A DNA stretch of 64,000 nucleotides from Clostridiales bacterium. GTDB taxonomy: Bacteria > Bacillota > Clostridia > Saccharofermentanales > Saccharofermentanaceae. Each line of letters opens with the position of its first letter. Positions within the stretch are counted from its first letter, which is position 1. Under the pieces are notes generated by a model. That model did not search any database and was not told the origin of the DNA. It saw nothing but the letters and a program-made list of their open reading frames with translations. Shown here one piece after another: positions 4,121 through 44,201 of the stretch. Position numbers and translations under genes: made by a program. The stretch covers positions 48,056 to 112,055 of the forward strand of contig JAFWLP010000019.1 in assembly GCA_017511005.1 (NCBI GenBank). Reading direction: 5' to 3'.

Positions 4121-4822
4121 ATGAGAGGGATCGTTTTCGACATCGATGACACACTGTACTGCAGACAGGATCTGCTCGTAAAAGCAGCTGAGGACGTGCT
4201 TGGCGTCAGGATAGATGACTGGCGTGAGTTCATAAGGATCTTCTACGAGAAGAGTGACGTCAACATGGCCGGACTGGAATCCGGTGAAGTAACGACAAGA
4301 GAGACCAACGGCTGGCGTTATGAAGAGACTTTCAGGATCATGGGGCTCCCCTTTAAACACGGTGACGGGTGCATTGCCGCTGACGTTTACCTTGAGCTTC
4401 AGAGTCATATGTTCCTGAGCGAAAATATGAAGAAGGCACTTGACGCGTTTGCTTCTGATCCGTACACCAGGCTCGCAATACTCACCGCAGGTGAATCAAA
4501 GCACCAGTGGCACAAGGTCGACATGCTCGGACTGGACAAATGGTTCGACCGTGCAAACATCATAGTCACCGGTGACACTGATTTCTCCAAACCCGATGTT
4601 AGACTGTGCAGGATGATAGAGGAGCAGTTAGGCCTGAAGCCGGATGAGCTCTGGATGATAGGCGACAATTACGATAAAGACATAACGGCGGCCCTTGATG
4701 CGGGCTGGCATTCCGTATGGCTCAACAGAAGAGGTCTTCCGGAACCGGAAAGAAGAGCAGACATCGAAGTCTTCACCGATGATGAGCTTACGGATATCCT
4801 TATCTCGAATAGACTCCGGTAA
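4121..4822 (+). CDS. HAD-superfamily hydrolase (phosphatase-like)
   Basis: Predicted Mg-dependent phosphohydrolase in the cytoplasm. The 233 residues carry all HAD motifs: FDIDDT with the nucleophile Asp near residue 7, LTAG (motif II), FSKPD lysine (motif III) and GDNYDKDI (motif IV). An inserted helical cap follows motif I, as in the phosphoglycolate phosphatase/YjjG-like class. The ATG follows CCGGAGGCACA. TATAAT at 4081-4086 is a plausible -10 with a weak -35. Its 3' end overlaps the convergent phosphoesterase gene by 23 bp. The substrate cannot be predicted from the sequence. Confidence 0.88.
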   Translation: MRGIVFDIDDTLYCRQDLLVKAAEDVLGVRIDDWREFIRIFYEKSDVNMAGLESGEVTTRETNGWRYEETFRIMGLPFKHGDGCIAADVYLELQSHMFLSENMKKALDAFASDPYTRLAILTAGESKHQWHKVDMLGLDKWFDRANIIVTGDTDFSKPDVRLCRMIEEQLGLKPDELWMIGDNYDKDITAALDAGWHSVWLNRRGLPEPERRADIEVFTDDELTDILISNRLR

Positions 4823-5519
4823 GCACCTCTGTTTTGTAGGCTTCACGGTTTGGCAGTGGGTACGCATCAGCGATCCTGGCTGCAAGCTCATTGTCATAGG
4901 GTATGCTCAGGATGTTCATGCTGACAGGCGATAATTCCTCAGAACCGGGAATTCCTTCGATCAGGAGAGCGTGGCAGCGCGGAACACCGAGAGAATTGCC
5001 GATGCTTCCGGTATTTATCGCATATCCGAGATCAGTGGAACGTATATACGGCATGTGACAGTCTGCACTGATAAAGCCGCCGTGTGTTTTTCCTTGGGTA
5101 TCCGTGAATCCGGGCTTAAGTTCATCCATCGAAAGATAAGAATGATAATTATCATCAACGGGTCTTCCATGGAACAGCCTGAAACTGATACCGCTGATCA
5201 GCACCTCGTCTTCCAGAGGAAGTGATTCAAGCCAGTCAAGACGCTCCTGACCCAATTGTCCGCAGTAGAAAGCATTCGGTCCGGGATCCGTGCAGTCGGG
5301 TTTGGAGGCCCAGACACATCCGTCATCCCAGTTTCCCTTTATAAAATGCCTGCAGTTGGCCCTGACCCAATCCAGAGTCTTATCACTCTCGGGGCCTTTC
5401 CCTACTGCATCGCCCAGAAACCAGATGTCATCAGGACAGATCCTGTCCAGTTCTTTCTCGAGCGCGAGCGTTGCAGGCATGTTGCCGTGAAGATCGGCAA
5501 TAAAAAGTATCTTTGACAT
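4800..5519 (-). CDS. Calcineurin-like metallophosphoesterase
   Basis: Predicted metal-dependent phosphodiesterase or phosphatase of the YfcE/MJ0936-like type, 239 residues. Visible metal motifs are DLH at residues 9-11, GDAVGKG near residue 37, GNWDD near 62 and a single histidine in LFHGRP. The last motif, normally GHTH, reads ADCHMPY, so one of the two usual histidines is missing; INTGSIGNSLG after it matches the family's PGSVG turn. Activity may therefore be altered. The ATG has an AAGGGATAATA leader. It is convergent with the HAD gene and lies 2 bp upstream of the GGDEF-EAL gene's 3' end. Confidence 0.85.
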   Translation of the reverse strand: MSKILFIADLHGNMPATLALEKELDRICPDDIWFLGDAVGKGPESDKTLDWVRANCRHFIKGNWDDGCVWASKPDCTDPGPNAFYCGQLGQERLDWLESLPLEDEVLISGISFRLFHGRPVDDNYHSYLSMDELKPGFTDTQGKTHGGFISADCHMPYIRSTDLGYAINTGSIGNSLGVPRCHALLIEGIPGSEELSPVSMNILSIPYDNELAARIADAYPLPNREAYKTEVLTGVYSR

Positions 5520-5521
5520 TA

Positions 5522-7795
5522 TTATCCCTTTTCCGGTGAATTGATGGAATCTGTTACGAGTTTCTCTGCATCCTCTGCGGACAACGGGCGTCCCCAGATG
5601 TATCCCTGGATATAATTACAGTTTATGCTCTTAAGTGTCTCAAGCTGCTCGATATCCTCGACACCTTCCGAAATGACGTCGAATCCCATGACGTGCCCGA
5701 TCGAGATTATCGCGGCAACATACTCCCTGGATGAATCACTCGTATTCATCTTATCGATAAAGGATTTATCGATCTTAAGGAGATTGGCCGGGAATCTGTG
5801 GAGATAGCTGAGCGATGAATAACCCGTACCGAAATCGTCGATCGCGATCTGAATGCCCATGCGCCTTAATTCATCAATGCAGTTAAGGGCCTTGTCAAAA
5901 GACTCGATCATGATGGATTCCGTGATCTCCACCTCAAGCTGTCCTGCGGGAATGCCGCTGTCATCGAGAAGTCCCTTTATCTCATCAAGGAAGTCGCTCT
6001 TCATCAGGTGACGGACCGAAGCATTGATGCTGAGTGTCAGTTCCGCACCGGTTTTGCGGAGGAGTTCACCGAAGAACAGTGAAGCTTTCCTGAAGACCAT
6101 GCCGTCGACCCTGTCGATAAGGCCGACCTTCTCGGCAACCGGGATGAACTCAGCCGGACTTATCACGTTGCCGTCGCTGTCCTTCATGCGTGCGAGAGCC
6201 TCAAAACCGCGCAGTCTGTGCTTTATATCGTACTGTGGCTGCAGATTGAAATAGAACGTGTCATTCTCAAGCGCAGTTCTTATAATCTTCTCGATCTCAA
6301 GTATATGCTCGTCTCTGAACAGATCTGAAGTATATCTGAGAACATGTTCACTGCTGTTGACCTTCTTTATTTCGTTCATTGCCGCATTCGCGCAGGATAT
6401 GAGAGGATCCAGACCGTCTGCATCCGTCGGGTATTCCGCATAGCCGAAGCTAGCGGAGACATAAAGGTCATAACCGTCAACGGTCACGTTGCCGCCAAGG
6501 GCATCAACGTAACACATTATCAAGGATCTGACCTCTTCTTCAGTCTGATAACCGCTGATAACGATTATGAATTCATCACCGCTTACGCGGGCAAGGTATT
6601 CCTCATGTCCCGCGTCTTCCCTTACGGCAACGGCTTTCCACCGTTCGGTCACAGCGGTAAGAACACTGTTTCCGGCTTCAAATCCCAAGGTGTCATTAAC
6701 GCTCTTGAAATTATTGAGATCGATCGAGACTACGGTAAACTTCTCTTTTCGGCTGATAAGACCGGAAATGTACTCGGTTCCGGAAAAGCTGTTCGGCAGA
6801 CCGGTCAGCGCGTCGTAGTAACTCATATGCTCAAGGCGTTTAATGACTTTGTAGCGCGCGATGTGGGATGAAAGGAAGAACGTCGTAAGCTGGAGTGTCT
6901 CCTTGATCCGTGTCGTGTTCTCGGTATCGAAATTGACCGCCCATATAAATCCGAGCAATTCATTGCCCTGGCGGAGCGGGAACAGAACAACACTCTTAAC
7001 ACCCGCCTCGATCAGTGTCACATACCAGGGGTGATTGATCTTTCCGATGTGTTCCATCTCCTCATCATTCCTGATGATGATGCAATCCCCTTCATCGCCT
7101 ATCATGTCTATCCATGATCTGGCGACATTGTAATATCCCTCAAACTCGGTAACACGCTTGATCGTGCTGTTCGGAACATAATTTGTAGCAAGGATGGAGT
7201 ATTCCTCTTCATCATTGTTCAGCAGGAGCACGGTGCATCCTTCCGCCTTGCAGATAAGACGGATCTCGGATATGACGCTTTCCATGGCTTCCTGAAGATT
7301 GTTGGCTTTATGGAGCTTTATGCAGGTCTTGAGAACGTCATTTGCGGTCTGTGAAGTATTGATCGTATCAAGCAGTGAATCCGCAGCGGAATTCGGAATG
7401 GCAATATAGGAACAATAGGATAAGTTTTCTTCTTCGTAATCCAAAGGCATGACATAGATGTCAAACCAGACATCTACGTTATGGATATGCGCATAGGTGT
7501 GTATCTCTTTTTTCTCTATGGCAGCACGGTAACATACATCCTCAAAATTCGTGTTCTGCGGGAAATAGTAAGTGTATAGCATATCCGGAACGAACGTATA
7601 AGTCTTTCCGGACTGACCTGAGCCGTCGTCAGGCATCACCCGCGCGGCAATGATATCTTTATATTTCGTGTTGCCGGCAACAATACGCATATCACCGTAT
7701 CCGCCGTCATCCTTTTTTTCGACAGACACGATACAGGCCGGTGAGAATAAAGAATCAACAAATTTCTGAAAAACCACTGGGGTTCCTTTCTGCAT
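5522..7795 (-). CDS. PAS-GAF-GGDEF-EAL c-di-GMP enzyme
   Basis: Soluble 757-residue signalling protein with no membrane segments. Residues 10-130 look PAS-like, 160-310 GAF-like, 325-490 GGDEF and 505-750 EAL. The GGDEF signature is SGDEF (405-409), the family GH...GD loop reads GFEAGN, and no RxxD inhibitory site precedes it, so cyclase activity is doubtful. The EAL half looks intact: FEALAR (531-536), ITES, DDFGTGYSS (653-661), LKIDKSFI, EGVE and QGY. It is therefore more likely a phosphodiesterase, possibly GTP-regulated. The ATG at 7795 has a weak ribosome site; a GTG six codons later follows AAAGGA and may be the true start. Confidence 0.92.
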   Translation of the reverse strand: MQKGTPVVFQKFVDSLFSPACIVSVEKKDDGGYGDMRIVAGNTKYKDIIAARVMPDDGSGQSGKTYTFVPDMLYTYYFPQNTNFEDVCYRAAIEKKEIHTYAHIHNVDVWFDIYVMPLDYEEENLSYCSYIAIPNSAADSLLDTINTSQTANDVLKTCIKLHKANNLQEAMESVISEIRLICKAEGCTVLLLNNDEEEYSILATNYVPNSTIKRVTEFEGYYNVARSWIDMIGDEGDCIIIRNDEEMEHIGKINHPWYVTLIEAGVKSVVLFPLRQGNELLGFIWAVNFDTENTTRIKETLQLTTFFLSSHIARYKVIKRLEHMSYYDALTGLPNSFSGTEYISGLISRKEKFTVVSIDLNNFKSVNDTLGFEAGNSVLTAVTERWKAVAVREDAGHEEYLARVSGDEFIIVISGYQTEEEVRSLIMCYVDALGGNVTVDGYDLYVSASFGYAEYPTDADGLDPLISCANAAMNEIKKVNSSEHVLRYTSDLFRDEHILEIEKIIRTALENDTFYFNLQPQYDIKHRLRGFEALARMKDSDGNVISPAEFIPVAEKVGLIDRVDGMVFRKASLFFGELLRKTGAELTLSINASVRHLMKSDFLDEIKGLLDDSGIPAGQLEVEITESIMIESFDKALNCIDELRRMGIQIAIDDFGTGYSSLSYLHRFPANLLKIDKSFIDKMNTSDSSREYVAAIISIGHVMGFDVISEGVEDIEQLETLKSINCNYIQGYIWGRPLSAEDAEKLVTDSINSPEKG

Positions 7796-7822: not shown

Positions 7823-8773
7823 TCAAAATCCTATGCGTTTGATTTCCCTGATCAGGTTCGACGCATACGTTTCCGTTCCGACACAGTTCGGATGGAGGTT
7901 ATCAAGGTAATACTCTTCAAGGTGCGGTACGAGAGTCAGCCCGTCGATTACTTTAATGTTCGGATAACTGCCCGCTATGGCTTTGATGTTTTCGCAGTAT
8001 CTGTAGAAAACAGGCAGCGCATCAATATTGTCGCCTCTCCAGATAGGTGATATGCAGAGGACCGGGATATCCTGACCGTATATTTCTTCAAGTGTCTCAT
8101 AGTATTCCTCGACATCAGTCATTGTCTCCGCCCCGTACTGATTCGTACCGAGCGCGACAATGATCTTGTCGGGAGTGTAGCCAGGCATCTTCATCAGTGA
8201 TTTTTTGTCATAGATATATCCGCCAATTCCCTGATTGAGGATGTCATATTCAAGATAACGGTTTGCGATGCTTACATAGGATTCGGAAGAACGCAGCGGA
8301 CCGTATCCCTGGGTTATCGAATCTCCGAGCCAAAGGACTTTTGTATTCTTTACGGGTATCTGATAATCCGAATCTATCGAGAAGTTTCTTATGAGCAGGG
8401 TGGCATCTATGGCAAGGTAGATAACGACTTTGTGAGTTCCTTCAGGCAGGGAGAACCTTATGCTGCCTTCTTTCTTCATGTCTTTGACATAGACGATCTG
8501 ATGTGCAAGGCCGTCAACATAGATCTCCACGGAATCCTCCGAGCATTTCCATGTCATCCTGTATTCGAAAGACACTTCAGTCGCGTCAGTGGTGAATTCC
8601 AGTGTCTTGGCGGTCGAGGCGTCACATCTCTCATACCACATCTCAAGGGCTGACCGGAAATAATCCATCTGCTCAGCCGAATACTGGTTGGCCTTCAGGT
8701 AACCGTCAGCGGTCTCTTCGAATTCGTATGCCCCGAAATATATCTTCTTCAGTTCATCATTGGTCAATATCAT
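7823..8773 (-). CDS. SGNH/GDSL hydrolase with CE2-like N-terminal sandwich
   Basis: Predicted carbohydrate or lipid esterase, 316 residues, no signal peptide, so cytoplasmic. Residues 1-140 form a beta-rich domain like the N-terminal jelly-roll of CE2 acetyl-xylan esterases. The SGNH fold follows: WLGDSITQG with Ser152, NQGIGG, ALGTNQ with Asn211, and DNLHPN giving Asp291 and His294. The start overlaps the end of the upstream sensor-GGDEF gene by 17 bp, so the two are translationally coupled. That pairing suggests the ligand sensed upstream relates to an acylated sugar (inference). Confidence 0.86.
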   Translation of the reverse strand: MILTNDELKKIYFGAYEFEETADGYLKANQYSAEQMDYFRSALEMWYERCDASTAKTLEFTTDATEVSFEYRMTWKCSEDSVEIYVDGLAHQIVYVKDMKKEGSIRFSLPEGTHKVVIYLAIDATLLIRNFSIDSDYQIPVKNTKVLWLGDSITQGYGPLRSSESYVSIANRYLEYDILNQGIGGYIYDKKSLMKMPGYTPDKIIVALGTNQYGAETMTDVEEYYETLEEIYGQDIPVLCISPIWRGDNIDALPVFYRYCENIKAIAGSYPNIKVIDGLTLVPHLEEYYLDNLHPNCVGTETYASNLIREIKRIGF

Positions 8774-10664
8774 TTTTGTGCGCTTCCCTCTTCATCTCAT
8801 ACATCGCTTCATCCGCCATACGGAAGTATTCCTCATTCTCAAGGTCATTTTCCGGATCGACCACCACGTATACTACACTGACACTTAACCTGAAAGGCAT
8901 GTTCAGGTCTTCAGAAACCTGCCTTGACTTCTCTATTATCTCATTCTTTATGTCATTTACATCACCGGAAACATCGTAATCACCGATAATTACATATTCA
9001 TCACCGCCGTACCTGACGGCTTTCCAGCTGAACGGAACGGTACTCTTGATCACGTTTGCAACGGTCTTGATCGCCATGTCGCCTCTGAGATGCCCGTGTT
9101 TGTCATTTATCTCCTTCATCTTGTTGATATCTGCAACCATGATGACTGACCGTTTTTTTGACCTGCGGAGTTCATCCAGATAAGGGATGACGATCTTCTC
9201 ATATCCCATTCTGTTATATAGACCGGTAAGCTCGTCCCTTACAGAGATGTCGGCAAGCACCTTGTTAAGACTTTCAAGCCTTATATTCTGATGTGCCCTC
9301 TCAAGTCCGTATGCCACATGTCTGATCAGGGAATTGAGATAGAAATCCTTGATGATCTTCTGATTGTTCCTGCATACGAAATACCCGTAACTATCCGCTC
9401 CCATGTGAAGAGGCACTATGACGTATACGGATGTCTCAGCAGAATCCCCGTCATAATACGGGACCAGGTCGGACAACTGAATATTATGTCTCGGAACCGT
9501 AACGCCGTCCTTCATTCCATAAATGACATCAATCTCATCACTGTAACCTGAAGACTTGCAGCAGGCCTCATCTTCCATTGAATCAACAAAGTCCATGTCA
9601 AGGCAGACATAGAACTCTCCGCCTTCATAGTCATGGTTCTTTTCCCACATCTCTTTATATGCCAGGTGGATGTCCTGTGCAGATCTTACATGGGCGACCG
9701 CATCGTCAAGCTGTATCAGATGCCAGTCAAATATGGTTCTTTCAACCGGAATGAGGAACGCTCTCTTTCTTGCTTCCTGCTGTATTCTTATTCCATCCGC
9801 TCCAAGAGAACATCCGCAGCTCTCGCCGAGATCGAACTTCGAATCATAGATCATATCACCGAAGTCGGGGGCCCCGTTCATCAGGCCGGCAAGACTGTCC
9901 ATTGCCTGATAGCTTCTCTCATCCCATCCGCGGTCCACCGATGTCAGAGCGGGAGAGAAATGATTGCCGCTCATAAGGTTATCGTAACCGGTAACGATTA
10001 CGTCTCCCGGGACGTTTATCCCGGCCTTCTCAAGGACAACGCAGACCGCCAGGGCCATATTGTCATTAGCGCACATAAAAGCATCGGGAAGCTCCGTCAG
10101 ACCCGAGACCACAGCCGGGAACTGATCCTCAACTATTGCATAGCTCCAGTATCCGTTGAAAGATCTCTCCGGATCAACCGTAAGACCGTGTTCTTCCATG
10201 GTCCTGACCAGTGTCTCATATCTGACGTTATTATCTTCATTATCCTCAGGGCCGCTGATCCAGAAAACGTCTTTGACGCCGTGAACGGTTATCAGGTGCT
10301 CCACAAGCTCCTTCATGCCGTTGGTGTTCTCGGTCCTGATGCAGTTTATCCCCTCAAGATCAAATTCAAGGCATATTGCGGGAACTCCGGCCTTAAGGAT
10401 CTTCTCCTTCAATATCATATTCTCGCCGGCATTGTTCAGCGTGTTGCCGAGAAGCAGAACTCCGTCGAATCTGTCAAGCTGCGGAAGGTTAAGGATATTC
10501 AGTTCCCCGGTTATCTCATCCTCCGTTTTGTCATAGGACGTATAGTCAAGGAAAATGAACACGTCGATGTTATCCTCGGCAGCGCGCCTTCTTATGCCTT
10601 CCAGCGCGAAGTCCAGATAATCATCATTCCAGCCATTAGTAAACACAGCTACTTTCTTCTTCAT
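8757..10664 (-). CDS. LacI-type sensor domain fused to GGDEF diguanylate cyclase
   Basis: Cytoplasmic ligand-controlled c-di-GMP synthase, 635 residues. It starts at MKKKVAVFTNGW, where GGAGG lies 5 nt upstream; the longer frame (10715) has no such site. Residues 1-275 are a periplasmic-binding/LacI-type sugar-binding domain (FMCANDNMALAVCVVL, DVIVTGYDN), with neither DNA-binding helices nor a signal peptide. ESCGC follows (Cys 283 and 285). A helical/GAF-like linker runs to about 475, then GGDEF with motif YGGDEY (553-557) and intact GH..GD loop (KHGHLRGD). No RxxD inhibitory site is seen. It shares architecture with the genes at 24463 and 26993. Confidence 0.93.
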   Translation of the reverse strand: MKKKVAVFTNGWNDDYLDFALEGIRRRAAEDNIDVFIFLDYTSYDKTEDEITGELNILNLPQLDRFDGVLLLGNTLNNAGENMILKEKILKAGVPAICLEFDLEGINCIRTENTNGMKELVEHLITVHGVKDVFWISGPEDNEDNNVRYETLVRTMEEHGLTVDPERSFNGYWSYAIVEDQFPAVVSGLTELPDAFMCANDNMALAVCVVLEKAGINVPGDVIVTGYDNLMSGNHFSPALTSVDRGWDERSYQAMDSLAGLMNGAPDFGDMIYDSKFDLGESCGCSLGADGIRIQQEARKRAFLIPVERTIFDWHLIQLDDAVAHVRSAQDIHLAYKEMWEKNHDYEGGEFYVCLDMDFVDSMEDEACCKSSGYSDEIDVIYGMKDGVTVPRHNIQLSDLVPYYDGDSAETSVYVIVPLHMGADSYGYFVCRNNQKIIKDFYLNSLIRHVAYGLERAHQNIRLESLNKVLADISVRDELTGLYNRMGYEKIVIPYLDELRRSKKRSVIMVADINKMKEINDKHGHLRGDMAIKTVANVIKSTVPFSWKAVRYGGDEYVIIGDYDVSGDVNDIKNEIIEKSRQVSEDLNMPFRLSVSVVYVVVDPENDLENEEYFRMADEAMYEMKREAHKNDIDQ

Positions 10665-10806
10665 CCTGACCTCCGTTAAGCTGTCTCCATTACCATCTGC
10701 TTCGTCAACAAACAATCTCAGATATTAATATCTTCGCATTAAGGCGTGATTATTACTTTATTATTGAGTTAATCATCGGAAAACATATGAGGAATACGAG
10801 CCGGGA

Positions 10807-11574
10807 TCAAGAAGGCTGAACTTCCGGTTCTTTGTCAGGCTTCAGCTTTTTAAGCCTGAACACGAGCATCGCAAACAGCAGCGGCACCGTTATCTGAAGC
10901 AGGAAAATCCCTGCGTCAGCAAGCCGGGGATTTGCGAGGACGAGATCAGCATACGCAATGTCACCCGTCAGCTTCGGTACAATAAATCCCCCGATCCGGT
11001 ATATATAGACGTCATAAAGATTATAACTGCCGGCAATATACGGAATGCCGATCATCAGGACTCCCTGTAACAGTACCGGCACAACCGGAAAAGCGAAAAG
11101 ATAGAGCCAGAACAGCGAGATTGAATACATGGCGATCGAAGCCGCGCAATCAGTCACAAGTCTTGCAGCAAATGCTCCGGCCTGCTCTGCAGTGGTATGC
11201 GCACCGAGAACCAGCCCCATAAGTAATACCAGCAGCACCATAACGGCATAACACGCTATAAGGATGACGGAACCCGATATGAATCTGCTCATGACGCCGG
11301 CTGCTCTTCCCGTACCATGTTCCTCTGTCTGCAGAATGGAACTCCTTGTGTATTTTTTCCGGTAAACACTAAGGATCAGACTAAATCCCGCAAGAGGCGT
11401 GAACACGGTCGATATGTAGTTCTGCAACGCAAGGAAATACGTCAGGTCATTCCAGTATTTGTTCTTTGTTAACACTGCCGTGACAACGGCTCCGATAAAG
11501 GCGGCAGCCGTCAGTATGATGAATCTCTTCTTTTTGATCACGCTTAACAGTTCTTCTTTTATCAATCCGGTCAT
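10807..11574 (-). CDS. ABC-2-type membrane permease subunit
   Basis: 255-residue integral membrane protein with about six hydrophobic segments and a basic, Pro/Glu-containing C-terminal tail. The N-terminal MTGLIKEELLSVIKKKRF resembles ABC-2 permeases that lack a fused ATPase. No ATP-binding partner is encoded beside it. It starts 9 bp after the M13 peptidase stop, with GAGGTG overlapping that stop, so the two are one transcript. Substrate unknown. It could instead be an ATPase-independent membrane protein of similar shape. Confidence 0.6.
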   Translation of the reverse strand: MTGLIKEELLSVIKKKRFIILTAAAFIGAVVTAVLTKNKYWNDLTYFLALQNYISTVFTPLAGFSLILSVYRKKYTRSSILQTEEHGTGRAAGVMSRFISGSVILIACYAVMVLLVLLMGLVLGAHTTAEQAGAFAARLVTDCAASIAMYSISLFWLYLFAFPVVPVLLQGVLMIGIPYIAGSYNLYDVYIYRIGGFIVPKLTGDIAYADLVLANPRLADAGIFLLQITVPLLFAMLVFRLKKLKPDKEPEVQPS

Positions 11575-24462: not shown

Positions 24463-26766
24463 TCAGATATCCGGCTGGCGGCCGGTCTTTTTTCTTATCT
24501 TCTCCTGATACAGGAGCTGGTCCGCGTTGTTCATCATCTCATAGATATCGACTCTGCCGCTGATCTTAAACTTGTAGATACCCGTACTCATCTCGATCGG
24601 ATAAGGCTTGCCGGCGAACTTGTTATAACGCTTGGTGACCTTCTCTATCCTTGCTTTCATTGAATCGACGTCACAGTCAGCTCCGGTAACTGCAAGGGAC
24701 AGGAACTCGTCGCCTCCGATACGTCCGATGATGTCCATATCCCTGAAGGATTCCTGCAGGACCTGGGAGATGGTCTTCAGCGCGAAATCGCCGTCATCGT
24801 GACCGTATTTATCATTGATCAGCTTGAGGTTATCGAGATCCGCATAGCAGATGATCGCAACCTTGCCCTGATTCGAAGGCTCGTCCAGTACGCGCTCGGC
24901 ATTGGATATGAATCCTCTTCTGTTGAACAGACCTGTCAGTTCATCCGTCTGTGCTATCTCTTCAAGCTTCGTATTGTCCCTGATGAATCTCTCAAGAGAT
25001 ATCTGAAGTGACTGCTTAACCTTATTCTGTTCCTCGATCATGAACAGCGATCTGAGCGTAACGGAGATCTGTGTGGCCGCGGAAGATACGCTGTATGACT
25101 CAGACATATTGAGTTCATTTACAAGCAGACCGTAAACGTCACAACCGACAAATAGAGGTGATACGATCATTGTCCTGCGGTCACTGCCGGTTATGAATTC
25201 ATTGTCGAAGATACTCTCTGTTCGAAGGAGCTGCTGTTCATCAGGCAATGATCTGAGACCGTCATCATCGAGGATCGCTTTGAGCAGTATGGATGCTGGC
25301 GGCATCCAGTTGAATTCACCGTAATTCTTCACGTTGCCCTGGAAAAGATACAGAAGCGACTTCTTGAATCCGATACCCTTAAGGCTTCCGAGCAATTGCT
25401 TGTACGGAATCTCGGACTCGTTCTCTGCAAGGAACACGTCGCCCATCTGACGGTTGACGACACCCTGCATCCTCTCAGTCCTTCTTCTTGCCGAATGTGC
25501 GGGCAGGATTCCGGAAAATGCAAGACGTCTGAAGTATCTTGAGAACACATCGTTGATAAGGAATCGTTCGTCATAATTACTCACCGACTCCATGGCTTTG
25601 CTCTGTAAAGTCTGAAGGATGTTAAAGCATTTCTCTCTTGTTGAAAGCACGAAAAGATCCGTTCTCAGCAATACTGAGAACTTCACGTTCATTATTTCGA
25701 TCGCCTTCTCTTTATCACCGGTTCTGATCAGCTCAAGATACGCTTCCAGGAAATCATTCAATGCCTCCGATATGGATCCCGAATCGACGAAATCATTAAA
25801 CAGATAGCTCTTGACTCCATTGACGAATCCGTCTCTGTCGATCTCATATTCATTAAGCTTCAGCCGCTCACTTATAACGTCTGCATCAAAGTCATCGCAG
25901 CCGCAGGAATTCCTCTGAACGAGATGAGTCTCAACCGTCATGTCCTTCAGAGCCGTGCCGTTGATATAATTCTCGGCATTGAGAACGGCTTTATAAGCGA
26001 GCGACGCGGAACTGGCTTCGACAGTGGTAAGCGGCGGTTCGAGCGATATTGCAAATATGTCATCGTCGAAGCCTCCGCTCATGATATCTTTGCCGGGTAC
26101 GAGACCTCTCTTCCTCAAGGCATTGTATCCGCCGACAGCCATCGAGTCATTAGCGAAAATTATCGCATCAAGATGATCGTTGCTGTCGAGAAGTTCGTCA
26201 ACAACGCTCTCGCTCGCCATTGAGAAATCGCCGTAAACGATCTTGCGGGCATCGAACGGAATTCCGTTCTCCTTAAGGGTATCCCTGTAGATATCAAGCC
26301 TTTCCCTCGCATCACGGTTGGTAATAGGGCCTGACACGAAACCGATATCTTTTGCGTTGTGTTTATTGATAAGATGGTTCAGCAGACCGTTTAATCCGGA
26401 ACGGTTGTCAAAGGTTACTGAATGATATCCTTCAAAATCCGAGAACAGGCAGACAATCGGCACGTCAGGCATGAGCTTAAGGAATCTGGTCTGTACTTCC
26501 ATATCAGCTCTTGAACAGATCAGGCCCTGAAGGATGTAGATTATGTCGACGTTTCGTTCCGTAGGAAGATTGAAGATCGAATTGTACTGATACTCATATT
26601 TTTTGTCAGCATATCTGCTGTCGGTCTTTCCGATGTAGTGTCCGGGGAATACGAAAAGATTAGCATCCAGCGCCTTTGCGGCCTGCTCGGCACCTATCGC
26701 GGCCTGATTCGAGAAGAAATTATCTATATCATCAATGACTAAACCGATATTGAGCCTGCGTCCCAT
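24463..26766 (-). CDS. LacI-type sensor domain fused to GGDEF diguanylate cyclase
   Basis: 767 residues, soluble. Residues 1-280 form a LacI-type binding domain (LNIGLVIDDIDNFFSN, IIFANDSMAVGGYNAL, MSGGFDD) without DNA-binding helices. SCGC is at 287-290. A long helical/GAF-like region follows and ends in a coiled segment, then GGDEF with IGGDEF and the loop KYGHDDGD. RDMD sits five residues before GGDEF, a canonical RxxD product-inhibition site, the only one among the five GGDEF proteins here. The cyclase looks active. The ATG follows AAGGGAG. It lies downstream of the GH16-like sensor gene but hairpins in the 226-bp gap suggest separate transcription. Confidence 0.93.
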   Translation of the reverse strand: MGRRLNIGLVIDDIDNFFSNQAAIGAEQAAKALDANLFVFPGHYIGKTDSRYADKKYEYQYNSIFNLPTERNVDIIYILQGLICSRADMEVQTRFLKLMPDVPIVCLFSDFEGYHSVTFDNRSGLNGLLNHLINKHNAKDIGFVSGPITNRDARERLDIYRDTLKENGIPFDARKIVYGDFSMASESVVDELLDSNDHLDAIIFANDSMAVGGYNALRKRGLVPGKDIMSGGFDDDIFAISLEPPLTTVEASSASLAYKAVLNAENYINGTALKDMTVETHLVQRNSCGCDDFDADVISERLKLNEYEIDRDGFVNGVKSYLFNDFVDSGSISEALNDFLEAYLELIRTGDKEKAIEIMNVKFSVLLRTDLFVLSTREKCFNILQTLQSKAMESVSNYDERFLINDVFSRYFRRLAFSGILPAHSARRRTERMQGVVNRQMGDVFLAENESEIPYKQLLGSLKGIGFKKSLLYLFQGNVKNYGEFNWMPPASILLKAILDDDGLRSLPDEQQLLRTESIFDNEFITGSDRRTMIVSPLFVGCDVYGLLVNELNMSESYSVSSAATQISVTLRSLFMIEEQNKVKQSLQISLERFIRDNTKLEEIAQTDELTGLFNRRGFISNAERVLDEPSNQGKVAIICYADLDNLKLINDKYGHDDGDFALKTISQVLQESFRDMDIIGRIGGDEFLSLAVTGADCDVDSMKARIEKVTKRYNKFAGKPYPIEMSTGIYKFKISGRVDIYEMMNNADQLLYQEKIRKKTGRQPDI

Positions 26767-26992: not shown

Positions 26993-29900
26993 TTATGCGC
27001 CTCTGGATCTCTTTCTTGCCATCTTGTCGGCATACATTTTCGAATCAGCTTCAAGGATCATGTCCTCAATATCAATAGAACTGTCAATGGTACGCTCCGA
27101 AACGCCGAGACTTGCACCAACTTCAAAAGGCTTGTCGGTCATTGCCGGATCGCTGTCAGCAGACTCCTCGATCTCGCTCCTGATCTTCCTGATCTCGCCT
27201 TCAAGCTTCCTGTCGCCGATGATGGCAAAAGCAAATTCATCACCGCCGTATCTGGCTGCGATTCCGTCATCTCTGACGTATTTCATTATCGCCCTCGCGA
27301 GCGTCTGAATTGCAACGTCACCGTGCTCATGTCCGTATGTATCGTTGATCATCTTGAGCCTGTCCATGTCTATCGAGAATAAAGACAGTATTCTTCCGGA
27401 ATTCGCGGGAGAATTGAGAAGCTTCTTGAGAACAGTAAAGAATCCTCTTCTGTTGTACAGGCCCGTAAGGAAATCCTGCTCGGACAGGAGCTCATTTGTC
27501 CTGCTCGTGGCGATAAGTTTGCGGTTGTTGTTGACCGCATTGACCGCAGCATTGATAAAGTGTCCGAACTCCTCGAATCTCTGCTCGGATCTCATCGTTA
27601 CCTCATAATAACCGTTTACCACATATCCGAATGATTCGGTGTTCGATCTTATCTGCTTGAAAAGCAGCACGTTGATATTGCTGTCATTGCACAGGATCAG
27701 ATCGTAATCTGGTATCGGATATCTCATCCGGTAGAATTTCTGGGCGAAGGTGTACTTGTTTGCCCTGCCGTGGAAAATGCTGTGACAGCAGCCCTCGGGT
27801 TCAATAACGCCGACAAAATAGTACTGGCTGCGCCACATCCAGATCGAGTTCTGAAGATTATCAGCGGCTTCGTCAAGGTTATCCGAAGATGTCATCCTCG
27901 AAACAAAGCGGCCCATCTCGAGCATGTGCCTGAATGAGTCCTGATTCTCCTCGGCCAGTTCGTCAACAATAGTTGACCACGGGAATTCCGAACGGTGTTT
28001 GCATCCGCAGGACTGCATGAACATCGATCTGTACGGTATCAGGAATGAATCTTCCTCTTTGTCCTTTATCTGATCCCAGTCGCGGATCCTCTTCAGTATC
28101 TGCTCCGATATCTGCTTATAATCAAGCTCGCATGTCGTTAAAACGGGATCGTTATACTGTCCCTGCCATATTCCGTCAAAGCCTGTGACTATTACGTCTT
28201 CAGGTATGTTCTTTCCGTTCTTGCGGAGCGCATCTATGACACCTATGGCCATCGAATCGTTTGCACAGATGATGGCGTCAGGAAGCTCGTAATCACCGCT
28301 CTCAAGGAGCTCGTTCATTACGGTATATGCCGGAGCCTGCCAGAAATCACCGTAGAAGATCTTCGCTTTCTTTGAATCTATTCCGTGTTCGTCAAGGACT
28401 CTCCTGAATATCCTGATCCTCGCCTCGGAGAACGGATTATCCCTGAATCCGCCGAACATGTCGAGCGTCTTTGCACCGTGTTCTTCGATGACGTGTCTGA
28501 CGATCTTTTCGAACGCCGAATCATATTCGAAATCAGCATTGATGCAGCCTTTAACAGGATGCTGGAAAGTTATTACAGGAATCCCCTTCTCATGTCCTAT
28601 CTCGGCGAGCCTGTCGATTACTTCCTTTGTCTTGATCATCTCTCCGAAGATTATGATGCAGGCAAGATCCATCCTCAGCAGCAGGTTCGCGAAATTGAGT
28701 TCCAGCTCGGTCTGGACCGGATCGGGATTGTCAACGTTGAAAGTAAAGCTCGATACTATGTAATCCTTGTTGATCTCTTCGGTCTGAAGGGCTCTTAAGA
28801 AAAGGCTGTAGTTATCGGAATCATCCCAGACGCCGCACACCGCGATAAGCTTGCGCTTTTCCCTGGGACCCTGTCTTTTCCTGAGAAGGATATTACGAAT
28901 ATGTATCGATGCCTTTGATATGGCATTAATGGCAAATATGATCGAAGCATTGTCGTAATCCTCAGGTGCCTCGAACATCATCCTGTGCTTCTGCCAGTTG
29001 CGGTCAAGCCTTATGACATAAGGCTCGGTTATCTGTTCGCCTTCCTGTCCGTCTTCCGCATTATCAGCCTTGAATATGCATCTGATGGTACGTTCCTCAT
29101 CAGATCTTCCGTCGAAAGAAAACTCGTAGAATTCTCCTTTCTTAAAAGGGAAACCGCCCTGCAGAAGTCTTGTCTCGCCGGACACGCCCGAAATGAAAGA
29201 CGGCGTGATGATGAGCTCGTCTTCCATAAAGCTCACATTCGCGTTCAGATCGCCTTCCGCAACATAGAAAGCATTGTTCTTGTTTGTATTGTTCCCGCCC
29301 TCTGTATCGAGCGTCAGTACTCTTGCAGGCCTTACGACCTTTCTGTTATAAATCGGTTTCTGGTAAAGCCTTATGTAATCAACGGCGTACTCCGCATCGT
29401 TGTCTTCAAGCTCTGCCTTGACTCCGTTCTTCTTGCCCATCCTGTCTTCACCGACAGAAACACCTATCACGACATGGAACGGCTTGTTGAACGGTGCAGG
29501 ATATGGTTCCTCTGTCTCTCCGTTCCTGGCAAACCAGTAAGACGTCCGGTAATACTCCTTGCCGTCACATGAGAAGATTATCTCGTCCTGATCCCATTCA
29601 CACGCGAAAATATGGAAGTCATTGGAAAAATCGGTATTAAGTCTGTGAAAGCTTCCGGAACGCTGTGTGTACGGATATCCGAATGCAATGTTGGAAAATG
29701 CCTCATCCGTTCTCGAACCTGATATCTCAACAACATTGATCTGGCCGTGAAGCGGAAATTCCTTATAATCGTCAGCATCAGCATCATAGCCTTCGGAAGG
29801 CATAAGCCTGATATAGCTGAGGAGACCTTTGGCCTTAGGAACCTTGATCCTTGCTATGAGCTTGCCGTATGTGAATTCCTTCTTGCCGAGCGTGGTGACC

Positions 29901-30136
29901 CTTCCGGAAAGATATCTCATCTCGCCGGAATTATTGGTAGTGATCTTAGGTCTTATGCTGAGAAAACCATCAGCTACTTTAACACATTTGCTGCCGCAGT
30001 ATTCCTGACGCTCACCATTGATCCATCCGGGTGCGCGTGTCTCGGCACTCCAGACTTCCTCATTCAATTCACCACTGTTAAACTCTTCGGACCAGACAAT
30101 GTGATATCCGTCCGGAAGCGAGACTTTGTTACTCAT
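26993..30136 (-). CDS. GH16-like / CBM-like / LacI-type sensor fused to GGDEF diguanylate cyclase
   Basis: 1047 residues, no signal peptide or membrane helix. Residues 1-262 follow the GH16 fold (IVWSEEFNSGELNEEVW, SGRVTT...YGKLIARIKVP, FNKPFHVVIGVSVG, VDYIRLYQ). The active-site ExDxxE reads Q132-I-N134-V-V-E137: nucleophile Glu and assisting Asp are replaced and Glu137 remains, so it should be inactive. Residues 285-420 resemble a CBM4/9 domain. A LacI-type binding domain (428-700) follows with AIICANDSMAIG, then SCGC (709-712), a GAF-like linker, and GGDEF (YGGDEF 964-968, GHEHGD loop) without an RxxD site. It is probably a cytoplasmic glycan sensor controlling c-di-GMP. The start lacks a clear ribosome site. 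Confidence 0.9.
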   Translation of the reverse strand: MSNKVSLPDGYHIVWSEEFNSGELNEEVWSAETRAPGWINGERQEYCGSKCVKVADGFLSIRPKITTNNSGEMRYLSGRVTTLGKKEFTYGKLIARIKVPKAKGLLSYIRLMPSEGYDADADDYKEFPLHGQINVVEISGSRTDEAFSNIAFGYPYTQRSGSFHRLNTDFSNDFHIFACEWDQDEIIFSCDGKEYYRTSYWFARNGETEEPYPAPFNKPFHVVIGVSVGEDRMGKKNGVKAELEDNDAEYAVDYIRLYQKPIYNRKVVRPARVLTLDTEGGNNTNKNNAFYVAEGDLNANVSFMEDELIITPSFISGVSGETRLLQGGFPFKKGEFYEFSFDGRSDEERTIRCIFKADNAEDGQEGEQITEPYVIRLDRNWQKHRMMFEAPEDYDNASIIFAINAISKASIHIRNILLRKRQGPREKRKLIAVCGVWDDSDNYSLFLRALQTEEINKDYIVSSFTFNVDNPDPVQTELELNFANLLLRMDLACIIIFGEMIKTKEVIDRLAEIGHEKGIPVITFQHPVKGCINADFEYDSAFEKIVRHVIEEHGAKTLDMFGGFRDNPFSEARIRIFRRVLDEHGIDSKKAKIFYGDFWQAPAYTVMNELLESGDYELPDAIICANDSMAIGVIDALRKNGKNIPEDVIVTGFDGIWQGQYNDPVLTTCELDYKQISEQILKRIRDWDQIKDKEEDSFLIPYRSMFMQSCGCKHRSEFPWSTIVDELAEENQDSFRHMLEMGRFVSRMTSSDNLDEAADNLQNSIWMWRSQYYFVGVIEPEGCCHSIFHGRANKYTFAQKFYRMRYPIPDYDLILCNDSNINVLLFKQIRSNTESFGYVVNGYYEVTMRSEQRFEEFGHFINAAVNAVNNNRKLIATSRTNELLSEQDFLTGLYNRRGFFTVLKKLLNSPANSGRILSLFSIDMDRLKMINDTYGHEHGDVAIQTLARAIMKYVRDDGIAARYGGDEFAFAIIGDRKLEGEIRKIRSEIEESADSDPAMTDKPFEVGASLGVSERTIDSSIDIEDMILEADSKMYADKMARKRSRGA

Positions 30137-30157: not shown

Positions 30158-30814
30158 TCAATTATCTACGGCAAAAATATCCGCGTCTCCGTTGCTGCGT
30201 GCCATAACATACTTGTAGCAGTCATCGGCACTGACCTCAAATGCTTTGAAAATTTCCTTAACCGCATCATAGATGGCCTTGCATCTGATGATGTCAACGG
30301 TATCGTGAGCCTGCGAGAAAAGACCGAAGATAAGCATGTCATACATCTTATAGAAATCGACCTTGAACGCATCAAATTCGTTGATGGCCCTGAGGAACAG
30401 TTCCTTGTTCTCGGGTTCATATGTGCGCAGGATATTAAGGAGATGCATCTCCTTCTTAACGCAGCCTGCGATGGCATTTACGCTTGCCTTAATACCGGGG
30501 CTTACCGTTCTCGTGTTGTAACGCACGATGGTCATGGAGAGCTCATCAATCATATCAACGCATTCCTCGATATGTCTTGCCATCTGAAAGATATTGATGC
30601 GTCGCTCGGGATCCGGCTCGACGGCATGCAGCCTGTCGGCAAACTCGTGGAATACGTGATCGCCGTCATCTTCAAGCTTATTAATGCGTCTTGATATCGC
30701 GACTCTGTCTTCAATCTTCTCGAGCATACCCATGAGCTCGACACATTCCTCGTTTAAGATCTCAGACAACTGCTGAGCATGATCAAATAAATATTCTCGA
30801 TCCTCGCTTGTCAT
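30158..30814 (-). CDS. DUF47/PhoU-like protein
   Basis: 218 residues, all-helical PhoU-like protein of the DUF47 family, in which members usually accompany PiT phosphate transporters and are thought to regulate them. Typical features are INKLEDDGDHVFHEFADRLH and the repeated acidic helices with MARHIEECVDMIDEL. The ATG at 30814 follows GGAGG by 8 nt. No PiT gene is adjacent here; instead the GH16-like cyclase follows after 21 bp, probably on the same transcript. That linkage is unusual. Confidence 0.82.
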   Translation of the reverse strand: MTSEDREYLFDHAQQLSEILNEECVELMGMLEKIEDRVAISRRINKLEDDGDHVFHEFADRLHAVEPDPERRINIFQMARHIEECVDMIDELSMTIVRYNTRTVSPGIKASVNAIAGCVKKEMHLLNILRTYEPENKELFLRAINEFDAFKVDFYKMYDMLIFGLFSQAHDTVDIIRCKAIYDAVKEIFKAFEVSADDCYKYVMARSNGDADIFAVDN

Positions 30815-30845
30815 TAGATAAGCCTCCTGAACGGTCATTTGAATA

Positions 30846-42737: not shown

Positions 42738-44201
42738 TCAGCGGAATGTGCCGTACTTGCTCTTGAACGAAGCCTTTTCTTCGTACATCGCCTCGTCTGC
42801 TCTCTTGAATACGGATTCAAACGTTACGTCATCGGGACCGTTCTCGGCTATGCCGACTGATGCCGAATACCTGAACCACGGATCCTTGTCCTCCTGCGAG
42901 AAAGATTCCTCAAAATCGCTCCTGAGCTTCTCGGTCAGGGCTATGCGGTTCTCATAATCATCGCCCTGAAGTATGACAACAAATTCATCTCCGCCGATCC
43001 TATATACGGTCGAATTCGCAAACACTCCGCTTATCATATCGCAGCAGCCGGTTATGTATGTATCACCGGCCTTATGACCGTACTCGTCATTAACGTGCTT
43101 TAAGTTATTAAGATCAGCCATTACCACGGCATACCTGCCGCCTTCCTTTGCACTTTGACGGCCCAGCATCTCGGACTTTCTGATAAATGCCGCCTTGCTC
43201 CCGACACCGGTCAATGCATCCTTTGCCGTCTGATCGCTGAGCTTGTCGATCCTCTGATCCTTGTTCTTGAGATCATTCTCGGCTTTTACCTTATCTTTGA
43301 GGTCATCGACTATGCTCATCTGCATGTTCCTGATGCCCTGATATATCTCGGATATCTCATCGTTACTCTGGATATCGAGCTCCATTACGCCTGCAGTCTC
43401 ATAGTCTTTGTTCATCGTGGGATTGAATCTCTTCATCTCCTTTGTCATCGAGACGATGGGCTTGGTAATAACCCTGTCTACGAGTACCATTGCACCTGCA
43501 ATGACGATTGCCGTATAAACAAGCGCACCCAGTATCATGCTTATGAGGAAGGATGTTCTCTCAAGCATGACCTCCTCCATGCTGATATCACATCCTACTA
43601 TGCAGACACAGTTGCCTTCGGAATCATAAACAGGCTTAAAATCCGAGCAGAGCCATCCCCAGTCGCCATTAGTGATCGTGGGATCCGGAAGATCGGTGAG
43701 ATCCGTTTCCCTGAGTTCTTCTTCCCTTAACTCAAAATACCCGGTCTCATAAAGAGGTGTCGAATCATCATCGATGAGGTACATATCATAGATTGCATCC
43801 GCATCACCGTGATCGATAACATAGACATATTCGATACCTTCCATGTTGGAAAGATAATCCGAAAGCAGTTGTCTGATCTTGATGTATTCATTCCACAGAT
43901 CACGATCCCTGAGAAAATCTTCGACAAGTTCCTCATTATCCTCTTCCACAGCCTGCTTCCTAACAGCCTGGTATTCGCCTGACCTTATGGTTTTTCTGAG
44001 CCTCGCAAGATAGTCACCGTCCAGCATGGATGCGACGTTGCGTGCATTATCTGAAGCACTTTGCCTGTAGTAGGAATTAATCCGGTTTGCACTTATCGAG
44101 AATGTGATCGCGGCAGTACCAAAAGCAACTACCAAAACCGTAGTCGCCACGAAGATATACATCTTCAGCTTTACTGAAAAGAATCCCCTGCCGCTTTCCA
44201 T
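42738..44201 (-). CDS. Membrane-bound sensor diguanylate cyclase
   Basis: 487 residues. Transmembrane helices at about 14-36 and 216-240 flank an extracytoplasmic Cache-like sensing domain (GIEYVYVIDHGDADAIYDMYLID, VYDSEGNCVCIVGCDISM). A HAMP-like segment (VITKPIVSMTKEM) and a helix lead to the GGDEF domain, with VMADLNNLKHVNDEYGHKAGD and IGGDEFVVIL. No RxxD inhibitory site precedes it. An active cyclase responding to an extracellular small molecule is likely. AAGGAG precedes the ATG. Confidence 0.94.
   Translation of the reverse strand: MESGRGFFSVKLKMYIFVATTVLVVAFGTAAITFSISANRINSYYRQSASDNARNVASMLDGDYLARLRKTIRSGEYQAVRKQAVEEDNEELVEDFLRDRDLWNEYIKIRQLLSDYLSNMEGIEYVYVIDHGDADAIYDMYLIDDDSTPLYETGYFELREEELRETDLTDLPDPTITNGDWGWLCSDFKPVYDSEGNCVCIVGCDISMEEVMLERTSFLISMILGALVYTAIVIAGAMVLVDRVITKPIVSMTKEMKRFNPTMNKDYETAGVMELDIQSNDEISEIYQGIRNMQMSIVDDLKDKVKAENDLKNKDQRIDKLSDQTAKDALTGVGSKAAFIRKSEMLGRQSAKEGGRYAVVMADLNNLKHVNDEYGHKAGDTYITGCCDMISGVFANSTVYRIGGDEFVVILQGDDYENRIALTEKLRSDFEESFSQEDKDPWFRYSASVGIAENGPDDVTFESVFKRADEAMYEEKASFKSKYGTFR

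Follow-up and report, generated by a model that had tools for sequence, protein, structure and literature searches.

Background

Two systems of Clostridium thermocellum come closest to the protein described here. RsgI6 carries a domain of glycoside hydrolase family 10 (GH10) with very low activity, which has retained polysaccharide binding and acts as an extracellular sensor (PMC4711584); RsgI sensors in general are described in PMC6056542. The LacI-family repressor GlyR3 is described in PMC5483248 as responding to laminaribiose and controlling a beta-glucan-related gene cluster. We analyzed a 64,000-nucleotide stretch of a Clostridiales bacterium genome (assembly GCA_017511005.1, contig JAFWLP010000019.1; hereafter the window), in which one gene joins a domain of glycoside hydrolase family 16 (GH16), a carbohydrate-binding module (CBM), a LacI-type sugar-binding domain and a GGDEF diguanylate cyclase domain. 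We hold, with modest confidence and from sequence evidence, that its product is a cytoplasmic cyclase whose GH16 input domain is a pseudoenzyme that would sense glucan oligosaccharides and report them by cyclic diguanylate (c-di-GMP). For most diguanylate cyclases the natural input is, to our knowledge, not known; here the ancestry of the input domain suggests a small set of candidate ligands.

Domain architecture and cellular location

The gene is a single open reading frame (ORF) on the minus strand, with the length and strand given in the sequence-only reading, an earlier annotation made before any database search. Its features are as follows:

26993..30136, minus strand: GH16-CBM-LacI-middle block-GGDEF fusion gene, 1047 amino acids (aa), no signal peptide or membrane helix seen
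29351..30136, minus strand: GH16-derived domain, residues 1-262 (PF00722, match to 3azx, substitution rates)
29726..29743, minus strand: former catalytic motif QINVVE, residues 132-137 (typically EIDIME in unfused relatives)
28856..29350, minus strand: CBM4-like domain, residues 263-427 (profile match to 1gui; hhalign to CBMs of unfused GH16 proteins)
28037..28855, minus strand: LacI-type sugar-binding domain without helix-turn-helix, residues 428-700 (Pfam and conserved residues)
27485..28036, minus strand: conserved middle block, residues 701-884 (lowest median substitution-rate ratio of the five segments)
26996..27484, minus strand: GGDEF diguanylate cyclase domain, residues 885-1047 (RYGGDEF at 962-968, no RxxD I-site)

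The GH16 origin of the N-terminal region, proposed in the sequence-only reading, was borne out by Pfam (PF00722, 48.9 bits, cut-off 22) and by a match of residues 9-259 to the T. maritima laminarinase 3azx (E=2.3e-24). CBM_4_9 scored under its cut-off in the window protein alone (16.8 bits, cut-off 25.9) and above it in the relatives L092 (30.2 bits), L032 (37.9 bits) and L144 (48.3 bits). A profile of seven fusion CBMs matched the CBM of Laminarinase 16A (1gui, E=2e-10), and hhalign aligned it at E=4.6e-37 with the modules of three GH16 proteins from the genus that are not fused. By these profile matches residues 263-427 are assigned the CBM4 fold; glucan binding by this module is predicted.

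The sugar-binding domain of the LacI/GalR family is present (Peripla_BP_3, 68.5 bits, cut-off 26.5), and no Pfam match was obtained in the window protein for the N-terminal helix-turn-helix of that family, in whose place the GH16 domain and the CBM stand. Residues R573, N626, D627 and D654, which we take to be sugar-binding positions, are invariant in 56 aligned rows. The GGDEF domain (106 bits, cut-off 23.8) is intact, as previously claimed, with D923, D925, N931, D932 and G964-F968 invariant in the same 56 rows; these presumably serve in metal and nucleotide binding. At the RxxD inhibitory site the window protein reads RDDG, and none of the 48 fusions compared has RxxD there. The middle block, which gave no convincing match in PDB (best E=0.21), is common to the fusions and to the LacI-GGDEF proteins of Lachnospiraceae. 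No anti-sigma domain was found in the window protein with Pfam, and NCBIfam and PHROGs yielded no name besides GGDEF and LacI-like matches.

The window protein has neither a hydrophobic N-terminus nor a membrane-like stretch (peak 19-residue mean hydropathy 1.62), which agrees with the earlier claim of a cytoplasmic protein. Export was considered and rejected, as the N-termini of the fusions lack a signal-like stretch. Judged from sequence, the protein is soluble and cytoplasmic, and with three carbohydrate-type domains ahead of a single GGDEF its predicted architecture resembles that of a ligand-gated cyclase.

Loss of the GH16 catalytic residues

Opposite the laminarinase motif GEIDIMEM the window protein has GQINVVEI. 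The ExDxxE set of nucleophile, assistant and acid/base is thus incomplete in the window protein, which has Q132 (CAG, 29743-29741), N134 (AAT, 29737-29735) and E137 (GAG); CAG and AAT are each a single base away from a Glu or Asp codon, as the sequence-only reading had noted. That reading named a sequencing error at this site as a danger to its claim. We rejected an error at Q132, since the nucleophile is Gln in 24/24 close GH16-CBM fusions, the window included. N134 proved to be a minor variant, present in 5 of these 24 with Asp retained in the other 19, and the acid/base Glu is kept in 22/24. Of the 15 other GH16-CBM fusions, 8 have Ser at the nucleophile position, 3 have Arg and 2 have Asp, while the remaining 2 keep Glu there but have the acid/base replaced; across the fusions Q, S, R, D, C and T occur there. 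The full E/D/E set was found in none of the 39 GH16-CBM fusions (38 plus L078), in 5 of the 10 fusions without a CBM (L133, L135, L137, L139 and L148) and in 22/22 unfused relatives sampled. The N-termini of these unfused relatives are hydrophobic and lipobox-like, whereas those of the fusions are not. Among the matches listed, 18 of the 24 genomes with a close fusion also have a GH16 relative that is not fused, in one case as a contig-edge fragment.

In the GH16 tree the GH16-CBM fusions included, 38 in number, lie on one side of a branch with support 95/87. With the motif columns removed, parsimony on a 70-row GH16 tree requires triad status to change 3 times, the nucleophile 5 times and the acid/base 6 times; the catalytic residues were lost more than once. 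Based on residues, GH16 catalysis is judged lost in most fused copies. Homologues with an intact ExDxxE, which the sequence-only reading had listed as a refutation, do occur among the CBM-less fusions; they limit its claim of a dead GH16 to the GH16-CBM branch. Changes of the nucleophile from Glu to Gln or Ser are used by crystallographers to trap substrate.

A rebuilt cleft under purifying selection

Of 72 positions invariant in the enzymes, 44 are kept in the window protein, compared with 42-48 in the close clade, 40-56 in the other GH16-CBM fusions and 44-60 in the CBM-less fusions. At positions 110/127/225 (numbered by the window protein, not by laminarinase) Trp/Trp/Asn, present in 22/22 unfused relatives, have become Arg/Phe/Gly in 23 close fusions, and the His/Trp at 151/232, also found in 22/22 unfused relatives, are both gone from all 23. 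Judging from the GH16 family, we take these five positions to line the cleft. The subsite-like framework that had been described as retained is therefore retained in part, with 110, 127, 151, 225 and 232 changed or lost. By these substitutions the cleft region is rebuilt rather than simply retained, and the specificity of laminarinase is therefore not to be simply carried over.

The replacements are uniform: Gln132 and the new residues at 110, 127 and 225 occur in 23/23 close fusions, across which 87/262 GH16 residues are invariant, Gln132 included. Among these 23 sequences, with the comparison restricted to pairs of dS<1.5 (40-58 of 253, depending on the domain; GH16, 42 of 253), median ratios of nonsynonymous to synonymous substitution (dN/dS) were 0.086 for GH16, 0.106 for the CBM, 0.080 for the LacI domain, 0.038 for the middle block and 0.054 for GGDEF. 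The GH16 domain is under purifying selection about as strong as that on the LacI domain.

Distribution and origin of the fusion

The sequence-only reading had called for a database search for GH16-GGDEF architectures. A family-level search of 115 genomes with the first 432 residues as query recovered 24 close fusions, at 64-100% identity and with frames 1038-1149 aa long, together with more distant fusions, and a contig scan with LacI-domain patterns covered the best 80 of 337 relatives, which represent 78 loci. We verified 49 fusions carrying GH16, LacI and GGDEF domains on one frame (the window, 47 loci and L078): 24 close GH16-CBM fusions, 15 other GH16-CBM fusions and 10 CBM-less GH16-LacI-GGDEF proteins. 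A lone chimera in a metagenome bin was rejected in view of these 49 fusions in separate genomes. At least 48 of the 85 genomes of the genus, many of them incomplete, carry the fusion, and none has two among the matches listed; 44 of the 48 were read, and the other four (G010, G057, G062 and G078) are counted from frames 871-872 aa long. The titles of the records mention Saccharofermentans, Mageeibacillus, Ruminococcaceae, Clostridiales or uncultured Clostridia, and the sampling sites, where stated, are ruminant gut sites and horse faeces. The gene is present in three records that bear no metagenome-assembled-genome label and are presumably isolates, namely Ruminococcaceae bacterium AB4001 and YAD3003 (both with dead GH16-CBM) and YRB3002 (intact triad).

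Searches with a GH16 profile were extended to 188 genomes of the order and to samples of 391 genomes of the class and 398 of the phylum, and gave long GH16 frames in other genera. We read 40 such regions, 21 of them from the class sample (all listed places with frames >=800 aa) and 19 from the phylum sample (all listed >=800 aa and three of 719-755 aa). Each contains a GH16 frame, GGDEF was found on 0/40 of these frames, and a signal-like start is seen in nearly all. In the order search G169, G153 and G154 were not among the matches listed; a G154 match of 518 aa was listed elsewhere. The genomes sampled thus showed the fusion in no other genus, which does not prove absence elsewhere.

Records named Lachnospiraceae, Ruminococcus and Oscillospiraceae contain LacI-GGDEF proteins of about 650 aa that lack GH16. 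A tree was built from 72 rows of the LacI-to-GGDEF core (a quick method with SH-aLRT support only, and a program warning about long branches). In it the GH16 fusions group with L138, L142, L143 and L144, which have no GH16, and with L141 (support 84); the proteins of Lachnospiraceae and Ruminococcus fall outside. GH16 presence requires 4 changes on this tree. With moderate support, the simplest reading would be one graft of GH16 onto an older LacI-GGDEF protein, followed by losses. Ahead of the LacI domain, L138, L142, L143 and L144 have about 155-185 residues; these include a clear CBM_4_9 in L144 (48.3 bits), whereas Pfam recognized no such module in L138. Another LacI-GGDEF protein, L145:5734-7920 (+), has an N-terminal Barstar domain (67.4 bits), likewise an unusual addition to this core.

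Gene neighbourhood

Two neighbours of the fusion gene recur:

24463..26766, minus strand: partner gene with LacI-type domain and GGDEF, 767 aa, next gene downstream (Pfam)
30158..30838, minus strand: PhoU_div/DUF47-like gene, 21 bp upstream (weak Pfam match, 18.3 bits, cut-off 24.4)

A homologue of the partner lies at most about 3.1 kb downstream in 32/38 GH16-CBM fusion loci, the window included. In the remaining six it was not seen: the contig ends at L123 and L124, and the fetched flank of L112, L117, L132 and L149 holds no partner. At L115 a 911 aa protein with leucine-rich and choline-binding repeats (4575-7310, +) is encoded between fusion and partner. The PhoU_div-like homologue stands just upstream in 22/22 other close-clade loci and in L116, L118, L120 and L121; in the fetched stretches of these 22 loci SepF was found in 21, and LarA downstream in 16.

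Eight loci of one branch (L119, L122, L123, L125-L127, L129 and L130) have a PLD-family gene and then a GH5 gene after the fusion, families being named by Pfam for L119; a ninth, L124, ends at a contig edge. The PLD gene overlaps the fusion gene by 4 bp, and the partner follows GH5 where the contig reaches. The GH5 protein of L119 has a signal-like N-terminus and finds its closest match among endoglucanases (3vdh, E=2.9e-86). At L144 a GH5 gene and the partner come directly after the gene. In the window and three loci searched with Rfam, the sole matches were one tRNA in L119 and one in L126. Elsewhere in the window, a 255-aa ORF (10807-11574, -) has no Pfam match at E<=0.001.

c-di-GMP machinery

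The genome of the window has 18 GGDEF matches (17 above cut-off) and 5 EAL matches. PilZ was found neither in this genome nor in any of 39 genus genomes, with positive controls. Two MshEN matches are present, and because PilZ was not found an MshEN-domain protein may be a c-di-GMP effector and the downstream target. The search for c-di-GMP-I riboswitches gave no match in this genome, and its control gave none either. Four further GGDEF proteins are encoded in the window (5522-7795, 8757-10715, 24463-26766 and 42738-44201, all -): one GAF-GGDEF-EAL protein, two LacI-GGDEF proteins and one with no other Pfam match.

Proposed function and alternatives

We propose that a GH16-CBM glucanase was grafted onto an older LacI-GGDEF protein and became the input half of a cytoplasmic diguanylate cyclase, its GH16 domain having lost hydrolysis and been kept as a putative ligand-binding pseudoenzyme domain. 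The GH16, CBM and LacI domains would most likely bind imported oligosaccharides of the beta-1,3/beta-1,4-glucan type; binding would change the dimer state of GGDEF and with it cyclase activity; and c-di-GMP would thereby report glucan supply, acting together with the neighbouring LacI-GGDEF protein. The beta-glucan theme is favoured indirectly by i) the GH16 ancestry, ii) the laminarinase-type CBM and iii) the GH5 neighbour in one branch.

Several observations weigh against this proposal: 1) the LacI-GGDEF core can do without GH16, given the four GH16-less relatives and L141 that fall with the fusions; 2) because five fusions retain an intact triad, enzyme activity may persist in some of the cytoplasmic GH16 copies; 3) conserved Trp, His and Asn are gone from the cleft of the window clade, which may thus no longer have its original specificity; 4) no GH5 homologue was found in the fetched flanks of the close-clade loci; and 5) no other GH16 match was found in the genome bin of the window (76% complete).

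The strongest alternative is that the LacI-type domain is the sole sensor and the GH16-CBM part a structural or oligomerizing scaffold without ligand. The proteins of about 650 aa are LacI-GGDEF proteins without GH16, the GH16-less relatives group with the fusions, the GH16 cleft residues are changed, and the LacI positions that we take to bind sugar are invariant. A mere scaffold is nevertheless hard to reconcile with 87/262 invariant GH16 residues that include the replaced cleft positions, with the presence of the fusion in at least 48 of 85 genus genomes, and with the glucan-type CBM and, in one branch, the GH5 gene that accompany GH16; we consider it unlikely, though a serious competitor.

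A new function of another kind would also predict fixation of Arg110, Phe127, His130, Gln132 and Gly225, as seen in the close clade. GH16 might perform other chemistry, such as transglycosylation or catalysis by another nucleophile, or bind a ligand other than glucan, for instance a fragment of the envelope or of an exopolysaccharide, and the PLD-family neighbour in one branch would suit this. A nucleophile position that varies among Q, S, R, D, C and T is, however, hard to square with one shared chemistry, and we regard this alternative as improbable. That the fusion is decaying and its GH16 drifting without function would account for repeated loss of the catalytic residues but not for the median GH16 dN/dS of 0.086 or the uniform replacement pattern of the close clade, and is scarcely credible.

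Returning to the glucan-sensing cyclase, a fuller history can be offered tentatively. Because five living fusions still carry E/D/E, the fusion may have begun catalytically competent; grafted once and then deprived of catalysis more than once, by nucleophile changes of the substrate-trapping type (Glu to Gln or Ser), it could have given rise to receptors that hold, rather than cut, imported beta-glucan oligosaccharides and report them via c-di-GMP. If true, the fusions of a single genus form an evolutionary series that leads from enzyme to receptor, and c-di-GMP is linked to polysaccharide supply in gut bacteria. The three presumable isolates make the fusion testable.

Comparison with known systems

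No description of GH16-GGDEF or LacI-GGDEF proteins was found in open-access titles and abstract openings, and the terms 'c-di-GMP' and 'diguanylate' are absent from a review of hemicellulase regulation (PMC10766802). What is new in the fusion is the combination of domains and the location in the cell; the use of a degenerate glycoside hydrolase for sensing has a precedent in RsgI6.

The nearest unfused relatives are the laminarinases (3azx, 1gui) and the lipoprotein-like GH16 proteins of the genus, which belong to the same family and mostly carry a CBM4-type module. The genus proteins keep ExDxxE (22/22 sampled) and look exported, whereas the fusion is internal and its set incomplete. LacI-GGDEF proteins of Lachnospiraceae, Ruminococcus and others share the LacI and GGDEF core, many of them with the middle block, but those examined, unlike the fusion, have no GH16 or CBM match. 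GlyR3 is, like the fusion, a LacI-family protein, and responds to laminaribiose; it binds DNA, whereas the fusion has no helix-turn-helix and its output domain is of the type that makes c-di-GMP. RsgI6 likewise uses a glycoside hydrolase fold of very low activity as the input of a signalling protein, but is a transmembrane anti-sigma factor with an extracellular GH10 domain and a sigma factor as output. In the fusion the GH16 domain is intracellular, its catalytic residues are replaced and the output is a diguanylate cyclase; if the proposed function is correct, degenerate glycoside hydrolases serve as sensors not only outside the cell but also within it.

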